Of a stretch of 64,000 bases of DNA, positions 1,895-5,707 are shown in pieces. Source of the stretch: Actinoalloteichus hymeniacidonis. Its GTDB lineage: Bacteria; Actinomycetota; Actinomycetes; Mycobacteriales; Pseudonocardiaceae. The DNA lies in assembly GCF_014203365.1 (NCBI RefSeq), contig NZ_JACHIS010000001.1:992001-1056000 (forward strand), read 5' to 3'. A model generated the notes under the pieces. It searched no databases. It saw only the letters and a program-made list of their open reading frames with translations, and was not told the DNA's origin. The translations under genes were made by a program, and so were the position numbers. The stretch's first letter is position 1. Each line of letters starts with the position of its first letter.

Positions 1895-2918
1895 TCAGTC
1901 CAGGACGCCCGCCGTCGCCGGTGCGACGGCGAACTCCAGGGCCGTGCGCCCGTCGGCGACCGGGATGCTGCGGAGCAGAGTGAGCCCGCGCCTGCGGCGA
2001 CCGCGCTCAACTCGTCGACCGTTCGTTCGCGACCGCCGAAGCACATCAGCATGAACAGGTTGATCGCGGTGTCGACCCCGCGCCCCAGGATGGGTTCGAT
2101 GACCACCACGGTCCCGCCCGGCGCGGCGGCGCGGCCACAGGCGGCCAGGATTCGGCGGGCGTGTTCGTCGTCCCAGTCATGCAGGATGTCGCAGAGCAGA
2201 TAGGCGTCGGCGCCCGTCGGCAGCGGATCGAAGAAGCTTCCGGAGACCGCGCGGGCCCGGTCGTCGAGCCCGGACTCGGTGAATCGTTGCGTGGCTGCGG
2301 CCGCCGTCGGTGCGAGATCCAGAACCTGCCCACGTAGTTCGGGATGTGCGTGCAGGATCGCGGCGAGCACATTGCCATCGCCGCCACCGACGTCGAGGAT
2401 CGTCGTGAATCGGCTCCAGTCGTAGCGTTGCGCGATCTGCGGCGCCATGGTTTGGAAACGCCAGCTCATCTGGGCGTCGAACGAGCGCCGCAACGTCGGT
2501 TCGGTGTCCAGGTCGGCCCAGAAGTCGCGTCCGTAGCGGTGCGGATAGGCGGCGGATCCGGTGGTGATCGTCGTGAGCAGCTCGACGAAGGCCAGTTCGG
2601 CGCGCCCGCCCGCGCTGTTGATGTCGAATAAGGGCCGCAGGCCCTCCGGCGAGTCCCGGGCGAGTTGGGCGCCCAACGCGGTGGGCCGATAGCGGTTCGA
2701 GACGGGGTCGAGCTCGAAGACGCCGATCGTCACCAGATGTCCTAGCAGCGTTGTGATGGCCGCCTGCTCGGCACCGCTGGCGGCGGCGAGTTGCTCGGCT
2801 GTTGCACCCGAGCTTCCGGCGTGATCGGCCCATCCGAGTGTCGCGGCCACTCGGATGCCATGGGGGTGGCCAGATCGGCCAGGTCGCGAATCGAGGGTGC
2901 CGATGCTGAGGAGTCCAT
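1895..2918 (-). pseudogene. SAM-dependent O-methyltransferase, disrupted by two one-base frameshifts
   Basis: The central frame encodes a class I O-methyltransferase of the dimeric, winged-helix type common in natural product pathways: motif I ILDVGGGDGN, later DILHDWDDEHARRIL and GGTVVVIEP. The frame with the expected N-terminus (MDSSASAPSIRDLADLATPMA) begins at the ATG at 2918 but leaves the central frame near 2858-2862. The expected C-terminus (LTLLRSIPVADGRTALEFAV, stop at 1895) sits in a third frame entered at the C-run near 1985-1987. Each join needs exactly one restored base, and the repaired gene would be about 341 residues, the usual size. Without repair an intact frame exists from a GTG at 2943 but has unrelated ends. 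Either the gene is decaying or the assembly has two indels. Confidence 0.7.
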
Positions 2919-3072
2919 GGCCCGACGGTAGCCGGCGCGGCACTCGGCAGAAGCGACCTCGTCCTTCGCGTCGCCGCTGGATACTTCATTCGAACGGGTG
3001 GGTTCTTCCCAGCATGCGGACGAATCAGTCCTAGGGCTTGGACCGGACCCGTCGCCGTGGCATCATCGCGTC

Positions 3073-3105
3073 GTGACTCATCGCGGCATGATCATTATCG
3101 CCTAG
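3073..3105 (+). CDS. Candidate isoleucine leader peptide of cimA
   Basis: GTG-initiated ten-codon frame reading MTHRGMIIIA, with three consecutive Ile codons (ATC ATT ATC) just before the stop. It is immediately followed by an inverted repeat and a strong terminator, and then by cimA, the first enzyme of the citramalate route to isoleucine. A weak -35/-10 pair (TTGGAC, 17 bases, CATCAT) ends six bases before the GTG, compatible with a leaderless start. An internal ATG at 3088 would give MIIIA. Function as an attenuation sensor is inferred from this layout. Confidence 0.6.
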   Translation: MTHRGMIIIA

Positions 3106-3172
3106 CGCGTCGGGGAGTGCTCCCACCAGCACCCGACGCGCAGACCTCTCGCATTCGCGGGGGGTCTTTTTG
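3105..3172 (+). promoter_or_regulatory. Attenuator region: hairpin plus intrinsic terminator upstream of cimA
   Basis: The first stem pairs 3105-3114 with 3132-3141 (GCGCGTCGGG, perfect 10 bp) and begins in the stop codon of the Ile-rich leader. The second pairs 3142-3152 with 3157-3167 (11 bp with two G-U pairs, loop ATTC) and is followed by TTTTTGTTT, a textbook terminator lying 55 bases ahead of the cimA start. A weak alternative pairing of 3115-3120 with 3151-3156 would disrupt the terminator. The exact antiterminator is not clear to me. Confidence 0.65.
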
Positions 3173-3225
3173 TTTGTCCCAGTACTCGTCCCACGCCAGT
3201 TTCCCGCGCCAGAGGAGTCTTCTCC

Positions 3226-4881
3226 GTGTTCCGCACCGTTCCGGCAGCCACCCCGCTCGGCGATGCCTTCCACCTCTACGACACGACGCTGCGCGACGGC
3301 GCACAGCGCGAGGGCATCTCGTACTCGGTGACCGACAAACTCACCGTCGCCAGACTGCTGGACTCCCTCGGCGTCGGATTCATCGAGGGTGGTTGGCCCG
3401 GTGCGCTGCCCAAGGACACCGAGTTCTTCGCCAGGGCGGCCGAGGGAGAGCTGGAACTGCGCCACGCCGCGCTGGTCGCCTTCGGCTCCACCCGGCGAGC
3501 AGGCTCGACTGCTGCCGAGGACCCGCAGGTCCGGGCGCTGCTGGATTCGAAGGCGCCGGTGATCACCCTGGTGGCCAAGTCCGACCGCAGACACATCGAG
3601 CGGGCGTTGCGCACCGACGTCGAGGAGAACTGCGCTATGGTCCGCGACACGGTCTCCCTGCTGGTCGCCGAGGGACGCCGGGTGTTCGTCGACGCCGAAC
3701 ACTTCTTCGACGGCTACGCCTTCGACCCGGACTGCGCGCTGCGCGTCCTGGAGGCCGCCGTGCTCGGTGGCGCCGATGTGGCCGTGTTGTGCGACACCAA
3801 CGGCGGCAGCCTGCCGACCGGCCTGGCCGAGACGGTGACCGAGGTGAGCGCCCGCACCGGTTTCCGGTTGGGAATCCATTGCCAGGACGACACGGCTTGC
3901 GCGGTGGCCAACACCATCGCCGCAGTACAGGCCGGGGTCACCCACGTGCAGTGCACCGCGAACGGCTATGGGGAGCGGGCGGGCAACGCCGATCTGTTCC
4001 CGGTGATCGGCAACCTCGTGACCAAGCTCGGTATGCCGGTTCTCCCGGAGGGGAAGCTGGCGGAGTTGACCCCGGTCTCGCACGCGCTCGCCGAAATCGC
4101 CAACCTCGCTCCCGACGCCCATCAGGCGTATGTCGGGTCGTCGGCCTTCGCCCACAAGGCGGGCCTGCACGCGAGTGCGATCAAGGTGGATCCGGAGCTC
4201 TACAACCACATGGAGCCCTCCGAGGTCGGCAACGGCATGCGGGTGTTGGTGACCGAGATGGCCGGCCGAGCCAGCCTCGAACTCAAGGGCCGCGAGTTCG
4301 GCCTGGACCTGACCGACAATCCGGAGGCGGTGGGCCGGGTCGTGCGGCGGGTCAAGGAGTTGGAGGCAGGCGGCTGGTCGTTCGAGGCGGCGGACGCATC
4401 GTTGGAATTGCTCCTCCGGGAGGAACTCGACGGTGCGTCCGCAGGCTCGGCCGAGGATGCGGCGACCACAACGGGCCGGGTTCAGCCGTTCACCCTGGAG
4501 TCGTACCGGGTGGTGCTCGATCACGCCGCCGACGGCACGGTCGTCGCCGAGGCCACGGTCCGACTGCACGTCGACGGCGAGCGGGTGATCGCCACCGCCG
4601 AGGGCACCGGACCCGTCAACGCCCTGGATGCGGCCTTGCGGGCGGCTCTGACGCCGTACCTGCCCTGGCTGAGCGAGGTGCGGCTGCTGGACTACAAGGT
4701 GCGCATCCTCTCCGGCGAGCACGGCACCGACGCGGTCACCCGCGTACTGGTCGATTCCGGCGACGGCGCGGGGAAATGGACCACGGTCGGCGTGCACGGC
4801 AACATCGTCGAGGCGAGCTGGCTGGCCCTGTGCGACGCCCTGGTGCATCGGGCATCCCGGCAGGAGGCCAAGGTCCGCTGA
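3226..4881 (+). CDS. cimA: (R)-citramalate synthase
   Basis: Condenses pyruvate and acetyl-CoA to citramalate, feeding 2-oxobutyrate and isoleucine synthesis without threonine. The 551-residue protein has the HMG-like TIM barrel at residues 15-300 with DTTLRDGAQREG at 19-30, the metal-site segment HCQDDTACAVANT, and a C-terminal LeuA-type allosteric domain (about 430-540). The ERAGNADLF segment and the shorter N-terminus place it with CimA and not with LeuA. GTG start with AGAGGAG about nine bases upstream. The gene follows an Ile-codon leader peptide and terminator, so isoleucine-responsive attenuation is likely. It is followed 52 bases later by the FAA hydrolase gene. Confidence 0.9.
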   Translation: MFRTVPAATPLGDAFHLYDTTLRDGAQREGISYSVTDKLTVARLLDSLGVGFIEGGWPGALPKDTEFFARAAEGELELRHAALVAFGSTRRAGSTAAEDPQVRALLDSKAPVITLVAKSDRRHIERALRTDVEENCAMVRDTVSLLVAEGRRVFVDAEHFFDGYAFDPDCALRVLEAAVLGGADVAVLCDTNGGSLPTGLAETVTEVSARTGFRLGIHCQDDTACAVANTIAAVQAGVTHVQCTANGYGERAGNADLFPVIGNLVTKLGMPVLPEGKLAELTPVSHALAEIANLAPDAHQAYVGSSAFAHKAGLHASAIKVDPELYNHMEPSEVGNGMRVLVTEMAGRASLELKGREFGLDLTDNPEAVGRVVRRVKELEAGGWSFEAADASLELLLREELDGASAGSAEDAATTTGRVQPFTLESYRVVLDHAADGTVVAEATVRLHVDGERVIATAEGTGPVNALDAALRAALTPYLPWLSEVRLLDYKVRILSGEHGTDAVTRVLVDSGDGAGKWTTVGVHGNIVEASWLALCDALVHRASRQEAKVR

Positions 4882-4933
4882 CCTGCCCGTCTAGAGTGGG
4901 GACGTCCCAAACAGCAGCAGCAGGAGGTTGTCC

Positions 4934-5707
4934 GTGCGTATCGGCCGTATCGCCCATCCCCAGGGAGTGGCCTTCGTCTCGATCGAGGGCGAGCCGGACA
5001 CGGACCAGGTCGCGGCGGAGATCGCGGAGCACCCGTTCGGCGACCCGACCTACACCGGCCGCAAATGGCCGCTGGCGGATGTCCGGGTATTGGCCCCGAT
5101 CCTGCCGAGCAAGGTGATCTGTGTCGGGAAGAACTATGCGGACCACGCCAAGGAGATGGGCGGCGAGGCACCGGCCAGCCCGGTGATCTTCCTCAAGCCC
5201 TCGACCTCGGTGGTCGGGCCGGGCGCGAGCATCAGGCTGCCCGCCGACTCGGAGCAGGTGGACTTCGAGGGCGAGTTGGCCGCGGTCATCGGCATGCCCT
5301 GCCGGGATGTGTCGCCCGCCAAGGCCAAGGACGTCATCCTCGGTTACACGATCGCCAACGACGTCACGGCGCGAGACCAGCAGCGTGCGGACGGCCAGTG
5401 GACCCGAGGCAAGGGACACGACACGTTCTGTCCGCTCGGCCCCTGGATCGACACCACCGTCGACCCGTCGGACCTGCGCATTCGCACCGAGCTCGATGGT
5501 GCGGTGCAGCAGGATTCCACCACGGCGAACCTCGTGCACGACCTGCCGACGCTCGTCGCCTGGATCTCGCGGGTGATGACTTTGCTGCCCGGCGACGTCA
5601 TCCTCACCGGCACGCCTGCGGGCGTGGGCCCGATGAAGCCCGGTCAGACGGTCTCGATCTCCATCGCGGGCCTGGGGACGCTGCGAAACCCGGTGGTCGC
5701 GCGCTGA
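4934..5707 (+). CDS. Fumarylacetoacetate hydrolase family protein
   Basis: A 257-residue member of the FAH superfamily. It contains ICVGKNYADHAKEMG, the metal-binding EGELAAVIG segment, the NDVTARDQQ motif and the terminal LTGTPAGVGPM, all typical of the bacterial 2-hydroxyhepta-2,4-diene-1,7-dioate isomerase / acylpyruvase branch. The true substrate is not known for most such genes next to gltX in actinobacteria. AGGAGG at 4922-4927 points to GTG 4934 and not to the TTG at 4928, which would touch the ribosome site. Likely cytosolic. Confidence 0.85.
   Translation: MRIGRIAHPQGVAFVSIEGEPDTDQVAAEIAEHPFGDPTYTGRKWPLADVRVLAPILPSKVICVGKNYADHAKEMGGEAPASPVIFLKPSTSVVGPGASIRLPADSEQVDFEGELAAVIGMPCRDVSPAKAKDVILGYTIANDVTARDQQRADGQWTRGKGHDTFCPLGPWIDTTVDPSDLRIRTELDGAVQQDSTTANLVHDLPTLVAWISRVMTLLPGDVILTGTPAGVGPMKPGQTVSISIAGLGTLRNPVVAR

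Follow-up and report, generated by a model that had tools for sequence, protein, structure and literature searches.

A predicted isoleucine-codon attenuator upstream of the citramalate synthase gene cimA in Actinoalloteichus hymeniacidonis and other actinomycetes

In the window, i.e. the whole 64,000-nt stretch of the Actinoalloteichus hymeniacidonis genome analyzed here, the citramalate synthase gene cimA is preceded by a short leader frame and two hairpins. These features are located in the window as follows:

3038-3043 (TTGGAC), a 17-nt spacer and 3061-3066 (CATCAT), + strand: putative leader promoter, from the sequence
3073-3105, + strand: leader peptide ORF VTHRGMIIIA with its stop, probably leaderless, from the sequence, the relatives and a -10-like hexamer
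3091-3099, + strand: control codons ATC ATT ATC (Ile-Ile-Ile), with II or III in 80/80 relatives
3105-3141, + strand: hairpin P1, proposed antiterminator, arms 3105-3114 and 3132-3141, from the fold and covariation
3142-3175, + strand: predicted intrinsic terminator T with its T tract, stem 3142-3152/3157-3167, from the fold and the spacing to P1
3212-3217, + strand: Shine-Dalgarno-like GAGGAG of cimA, from the sequence by eye
3226-4881, + strand: cimA, citramalate synthase, 551 aa, from TIGR00977 and the HMGL-like and LeuA_dimer domains

The leader starts with GTG, and its ten codons (3073-3102) are followed by the stop codon TAG (3103-3105), the G of which is the first base of P1. The main stem of P1 is a perfect 10-bp helix continued by an upper stem of 4 more pairs (3118-3121/3128-3131), and the 11-bp stem of T, which includes two G-U pairs, follows with a gap of 0 nt. 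The initial annotation had described a ten-codon Ile leader, a 10-bp stem beginning in its stop codon, an 11-bp terminator with a T tract, and cimA, and all of these were borne out. The region 3073-3175 folds at -50.7 kcal/mol. Two hundred dinucleotide shuffles gave -33.2 kcal/mol (sd 3.2), so that z is -5.46, and not one shuffle folded equally well. Rfam covariance models gave no match up to E 1 in positions 2000-5500 of the window, and no Rfam family matched in eight related loci either. That T is the terminator of an upstream gene was considered and rejected: the long upstream frame (1492-2943) lies on the other strand, and in four relatives T is only 14 nt from the cimA match.

The product of 3226-4881 scored 577 bits against TIGR00977 (cut-off 450), and the leuA models scored under their cut-offs on it; the upstream frame 555-1820 scores as 3-isopropylmalate dehydrogenase. 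The initial annotation had cast cimA as the entry to a threonine-independent isoleucine route. The identity of the gene is supported, but the citramalate route would be a second isoleucine supply, because one gene of the same genome, at 434 bits, scored above the TIGR01127 cut-off for threonine deaminase.

As relatives we took the 80 top-scoring cimA loci in the genome collection; going by the titles, most are from Pseudonocardiaceae and some from metagenome bins. A short frame with an Ile-Ile or longer run lies 5' of cimA in 80/80 of them, and P1 and T follow the Ile leader in all 80. With the window included, the terminator stem has 10-12 pairs in 81/81 sequences, the gap between P1 and T is 0 nt in 69/81 and 1 nt in 12/81, and the two hairpins have no shared base in 80/81 when contiguous extension only is counted. 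Double-sided changes occur at four pairs of P1 and one pair of T; compensatory changes, which the initial annotation had named as support for attenuation if found in both stems, are therefore seen in each. Covarying cells among the 81 sequences numbered 32, compared with 8.0 after shuffling and 0-2 in slid controls. One covarying pair ties a Val/Ala leader codon (GTC/GCC) to A/G on the opposite arm, with three mismatches.

The leader peptide is variable except for the Ile run and its end. ATT accounts for 110 of the 237 Ile codons of the leaders but for 34 of 1074 within the cimA genes themselves at the 80 loci (Fisher p 4e-62, relatedness ignored), and each of the 81 leaders contains at least one ATT codon. 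A chance reading frame was rejected on the strength of this rare-codon enrichment together with the conservation. As to the end of the leader, the stop codon lies just 5' of P1 in the window (3103-3105) and in Kutzneria sp. CA-103260 (L028); in most other close relatives the frame runs into P1, ending in RAG, RVG, RAE or RAGR before the stop.

A -10-like hexamer (NANNNT) was found 5-9 nt 5' of an in-frame leader start in 81/81 sequences, compared with about 11% at random positions, and 6-7 nt before the start in 78/81; where a leader had several in-frame starts, the best one was used, and these counts are therefore on the generous side. The position of the hexamer suggests that the leader mRNA is leaderless. 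A sigma-70 consensus scan found nothing after 3172, yet the same scan also missed the putative leader promoter at 3038-3066. T lies at most 45 nt from the cimA match in 33/81 loci and 14 nt from it in four Lentzea loci, counted to the start of the match since the gene start is not proven, and there would therefore be little space for a second promoter.

A covariance model, R1, was built from the 81 leaders. In the 6.3-Mb genome of the window, whose leader is itself among the training sequences, it gave a single strong match, the cimA leader (1.5e-25), with the runner-up at E 0.64. Across 394 genomes of the class, R1 matched at E 0.001 or better in 229, and cimA was found at E 1e-100 in 310. 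The two occur together in 224 genomes, although a match need not sit at cimA, and five genomes (G010, G034, G052, G074 and G281) have a match without cimA. The remaining 86 of the 310 cimA genomes have no match, which weighs against reading the leader as an attenuator of cimA.

We examined 89 match loci, 29 returned by the search and 60 picked for family spread; one place occurs twice among them, as L087 and L116, and another, L088, is identical with the training element L041. cimA lies downstream of 87/89, the exceptions being L124, followed by ilvB, and L169, followed by a small ACT-like protein. An Ile run was found at 84 of the 87 cimA loci (L120 and L123 are without it, and L122 is at a contig end), so that the Ile codons, whose conservation the initial annotation had asked of close relatives, are retained in 80/80 relatives and in most loci across the class. 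In the class-wide set of 87 matches aligned to R1 (window included, 84 distinct), an alignment that leans to the model, 126 double-changed cells were counted, compared with 26.7 after shuffling, with five such pairs in P1 and six in T. Spacing was counted in the 78 of 87 loci that could be parsed (73 distinct), leaving out L102, L105, L106, L110, L120, L122, L123, L137 and L140. The start of the last Ile codon precedes P1 by 7-11 nt in 75/78 loci and by 5-6 nt in 3/78; the gap between P1 and T is 0 nt in 70/78 and 1 nt in 8/78, and the two have no common base in 70/78. The leader stop is equally often 1-3 nt 5' of P1 (39/78) and past the first P1 base (39/78).

The element at L169 (1000 bases, minus strand; also L260), in genome G102, consists of the leader MFTPRIII, P1 and T before the ACT-like protein, which matched PF13291 under the cut-off (E 0.0037). 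A second Ile leader of G102 precedes its cimA (L207), and genome G183 carries a similar element (L261) whose downstream protein is similar by eye.

In 20 further cimA loci, 19 from genomes without an R1 match and one from G152, which has a match at a place not seen, the 661 bases read per locus contained no Ile-Ile uORF. In five of these loci, from family f28, a long open frame ends 17-32 nt upstream of cimA. Nine others, from family f20 (L240, L242, L244, L245, L246, L248, L250, L255 and L257), have a different stretch in common, GGCGGYGAACCYG...GCGCG, and likewise no Ile-Ile uORF; no Rfam match was obtained in the five of them searched (L240, L242, L244, L255 and L257).

The effect of a ribosome on P1 was modeled with the ribosome edge 12 nt past the first base of the A-site codon, and P1 was scored as kept when at least 6 of its 10 outer pairs remained. 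When the first Ile codon occupied the A site, P1 was kept in 81/81 of the relatives set and in 77/78 of the class-wide loci, and when the ribosome was at the stop codon in 0/81 and 0/78. In this model, the state of P1 is dependent on the position of the ribosome. At the first Ile codon, a 9-nt edge kept P1 in 81/81 and 78/78, but a 15-nt edge in only 70/81 and 48/78; a ribosome decoding the last Ile codon left P1 mostly open at the 12-nt edge (kept in 2/81 and 18/78). Both the opening of P1 by a stall at the last Ile codon and the weaker first-codon result at the 15-nt edge speak against an attenuator in which P1 is the antiterminator, as does the compatibility of P1 and T at equilibrium: the two are predicted to coexist in the equilibrium fold. 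The pair probability of T fell below 0.8 in at most 2/81 and 7/78 sequences at any ribosome setting. Because P1 and T are predicted to coexist at equilibrium and share no bases in most loci, any exclusion between them must be steric or kinetic.

In E. coli trp, the position of the ribosome on the control codons decides termination, and an arrangement of that type could be imagined here: a stalled ribosome would mask the 5' arm of P1, freeing its 3' arm to pair with the 5' arm of T as a mutually exclusive antiterminator. The full-length fold is no bar to this scheme and does not discriminate it, because the E. coli trp control likewise shows T folded. Moreover, when the RNA was cut before the 3' arm of T and P1 was masked (edges of at least 18 nt, up to 45 nt), the 5' arm of T paired upstream with a mean probability of 0.43-0.45, exceeding 0.5 in 31-39 of 81 sequences. 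The pairings are nevertheless short: none of the four cases shown has a hairpin of more than 7 pairs, the window has a bulged 5-pair hairpin, and in L009 the pairing is nearly absent. Pairings of this strength were judged insufficient to keep an 11-bp T from forming. By contrast, a strong 2:3 hairpin (-15.6 kcal/mol), the antiterminator that takes the terminator arm in that system, formed in the E. coli trp control when the RNA ended ahead of region 4 and the first Trp codon was occupied by the ribosome. A ribosome on the first Ile codon, furthermore, leaves P1 unmasked at the 9- and 12-nt edges, and we consider the trp-type scheme unlikely. The initial annotation had proposed ribosome-mediated attenuation as in ilv, leu and trp genes; the codons, the stems and the terminator agree with this, while for a trp-style antiterminator there is only a weak candidate. 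Since that candidate is weak, the mechanism is probably not of the trp type, and P1 itself would be the probable switch.

P1 might instead aid T, as a pause hairpin or by coaxial stacking, in which case a ribosome stalled on the Ile codons would open P1 and weaken termination. P1 does abut T, and a ribosome decoding the last Ile codon (12-nt edge) left 79/81 sequences with fewer than six outer pairs. This role is nonetheless improbable, and we place it lower than the trp-type scheme: a ribosome at the stop codon also opens P1, so that fed and starved states would look the same unless release were fast, a stall at the first Ile codon keeps P1 intact at the 9- and 12-nt edges, and T is predicted to be stable without P1. 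When the RNA was trimmed from its 5' end to edges of 0-45 nt, the mean pair probability of T stayed at 0.95-0.97, and 1/81 sequences fell below 0.5 at one edge. By eye, CTC|G follows P1 at about 10-11 nt, an arrangement that resembles hairpin pauses; a pause-hairpin role of P1 was rejected, as it gives no switch by itself.

We thus favour, with good though incomplete confidence, the reading that the cimA leader is an Ile-specific ribosome-mediated transcription attenuator with P1 as its antiterminator. P1 is assigned this role because starvation should raise the expression of a biosynthetic gene and because P1 responds to the ribosome in the model. The transcript would start at or beside the leader start codon, and the ribosome would begin on a leaderless mRNA. 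With ample charged tRNA-Ile, it would pass the Ile codons, reach the stop codon and cover the 5' arm of P1; T could then form, and transcription would stop before cimA. When Ile-tRNA is scarce, the ribosome would stall at the first Ile codon and P1 would stay folded against the base of T. Without a linker, the folded P1 would occupy the place where T must close; T could not close properly, and RNA polymerase would continue into cimA. We infer, on this basis, that P1 blocks T and that the expression of cimA responds to isoleucine, and the cell can probably open the citramalate route when isoleucine is short.

The control codons of R1 elements were also compared among different downstream genes. 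Thirty of 69 element places were fetched, from 35 genomes of which 33 have more than one R1 match, and their best downstream matches were ilvB (20), cimA (4, one of them assigned on 35 residues at a contig end), leuS (4) and leuA (2). Taking at each place the leader with the longest I/L/V run, the codon-run totals were I 10 for cimA leaders; L 33, V 30 and I 12 for ilvB leaders; L 6 and I 1 for leuA leaders; and L 11 and I 1 for leuS leaders. As the runs are of Ile before cimA, of Leu, Val and Ile before ilvB, and mostly of Leu before leuA and leuS, the control codons track the gene. Outside the class, 20 of 22 listed places were fetched (G618 and G561 were not among them), with ilvB downstream at 13, leuA at 2 (one at 29% identity), cimA at 1 and none of these at 4; the leader of the single cimA element (L289) ends in AIIIC before its stop. 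In 45 folded elements, mostly of ilvB, leuA and leuS, the gap between P1 and T is 0 nt in 36, 1 nt in 3 and 2-5 nt in 6. The genome of the window has its own ilvB leader, VLRLTDILVLPWRADV, which R1 missed. The leuA genes of L209 and L210 (G052 and G034, family f13) are preceded by Leu-codon leaders, MKHLLLIESARH and MTNLLLT, with the P1-terminator layout, and these differ from the pseudoknot LEU element described for actinobacterial leuA.

These comparisons also bear on whether the leader peptide or its translation serves another end, with the peptide acting in trans, ribosomes re-initiating at cimA, or cimA being controlled at the level of translation. A trans-acting leader peptide is known in peTrpL (excerpt of PMC7298713), and actinobacterial leader genes are often 10-11 bp from the next gene (excerpt of PMC4833913). 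However, the peptide varies apart from the Ile run and its end, the stop codon is either just 5' of P1 or within it, the codons change with the target gene, and a terminator stands between the leader and cimA; such a function therefore appears highly improbable.

A wider proposal, which we put forward tentatively as possible rather than probable, is that Actinomycetota possess a phylum-wide class of attenuators without base-pair exchange. An abutting hairpin (0-1 nt) would sterically block the terminator in the exit channel of RNA polymerase, a ribosome on the stop codon would remove the hairpin, and a few codon swaps would retune the module between cimA (Ile), leuA/leuS (Leu) and ilvB (Ile/Leu/Val). 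If the attenuator reading is true, it would account for the way in which many actinomycetes turn on isoleucine synthesis through citramalate, a pathway that metabolic engineers also use, and cimA would join the attenuated branched-chain amino acid genes across much of the class. The codon change between cimA, ilvB, leuA and leuS may be regarded as an experiment by nature in how leader peptides sense amino acids, and with the abutting hairpins the unclear mode of action of actinobacterial ilvB leaders becomes open to test.

Among the matches listed from the openly licensed literature, no cimA attenuator or leader was found, in agreement with the statement of the initial annotation that no description of cimA attenuation was known. 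The word cimA is absent from two texts on Streptomyces leaders (PMC1262725 and PMC8079986), and its absence from the second, an RNA-seq reannotation of S. lividans with eight leader peptides, tells against the attenuator reading. So does the excerpted report that changes to the candidate codons in the S. coelicolor ilvB leader were without effect on regulation (PMC1262725); the mode of action of the Streptomyces ilvB leader is called unclear. According to the same excerpts, the Streptomyces ilvB and leuS leaders are leaderless, with hairpins and a U-rich stretch (PMC1262725, PMC8079986), and the S. lividans IlvL peptide, MRTRILVLGKRVG (PMC8079986), is identical to the peptide that R1 found before ilvB in L224, L225 and L234. 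A Streptomyces is likely to carry the cimA element, as L127-L133 belong to genus g28 and three further g28 genomes have an ilvB leader identical to the S. lividans one.

As excerpted, the M. tuberculosis ilvB1NC leader resembles the cimA element in having a branched-chain amino acid-codon uORF and an intrinsic terminator before the gene; in the published model the antiterminator is covered once the ribosome reaches the stop codon, and a stall at the control codons lets it form (PMC13236596). The sensor there is LVVI and the gene ilvB1, in contrast to the Ile run and cimA, and the structures are called mutually exclusive, whereas P1 and T are without common bases (PMC13236596). The 26-nt occlusion of that scheme, centred on the codon (PMC13236596), falls between the 12- and 15-nt edges used here. 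The C. glutamicum ilvBNC leader, in the excerpt of PMC11857589, has a near-leaderless peptide, as is predicted for the cimA element, and an antiterminator adjoining the terminator, as P1 adjoins T; pausing at its control codons permits the antiterminator. Its hairpins, however, overlap by a GCC trinucleotide, whereas P1 and T are 0-1 nt apart with no overlap in 80/81; the cimA element also differs in its use of Ile only and in its gene, and a start-codon mutant lowered C. glutamicum expression by 80% (PMC11857589), whereas for cimA the simple P1 model predicts a rise. The ilvB-type trait of a hairpin beside the terminator, masked by a ribosome at the stop codon, is nevertheless present in the cimA element, and one covariance model (R1) finds both ilvB and cimA elements. 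Attenuation is known for actinobacterial ilvB, and cimA would be a further target.
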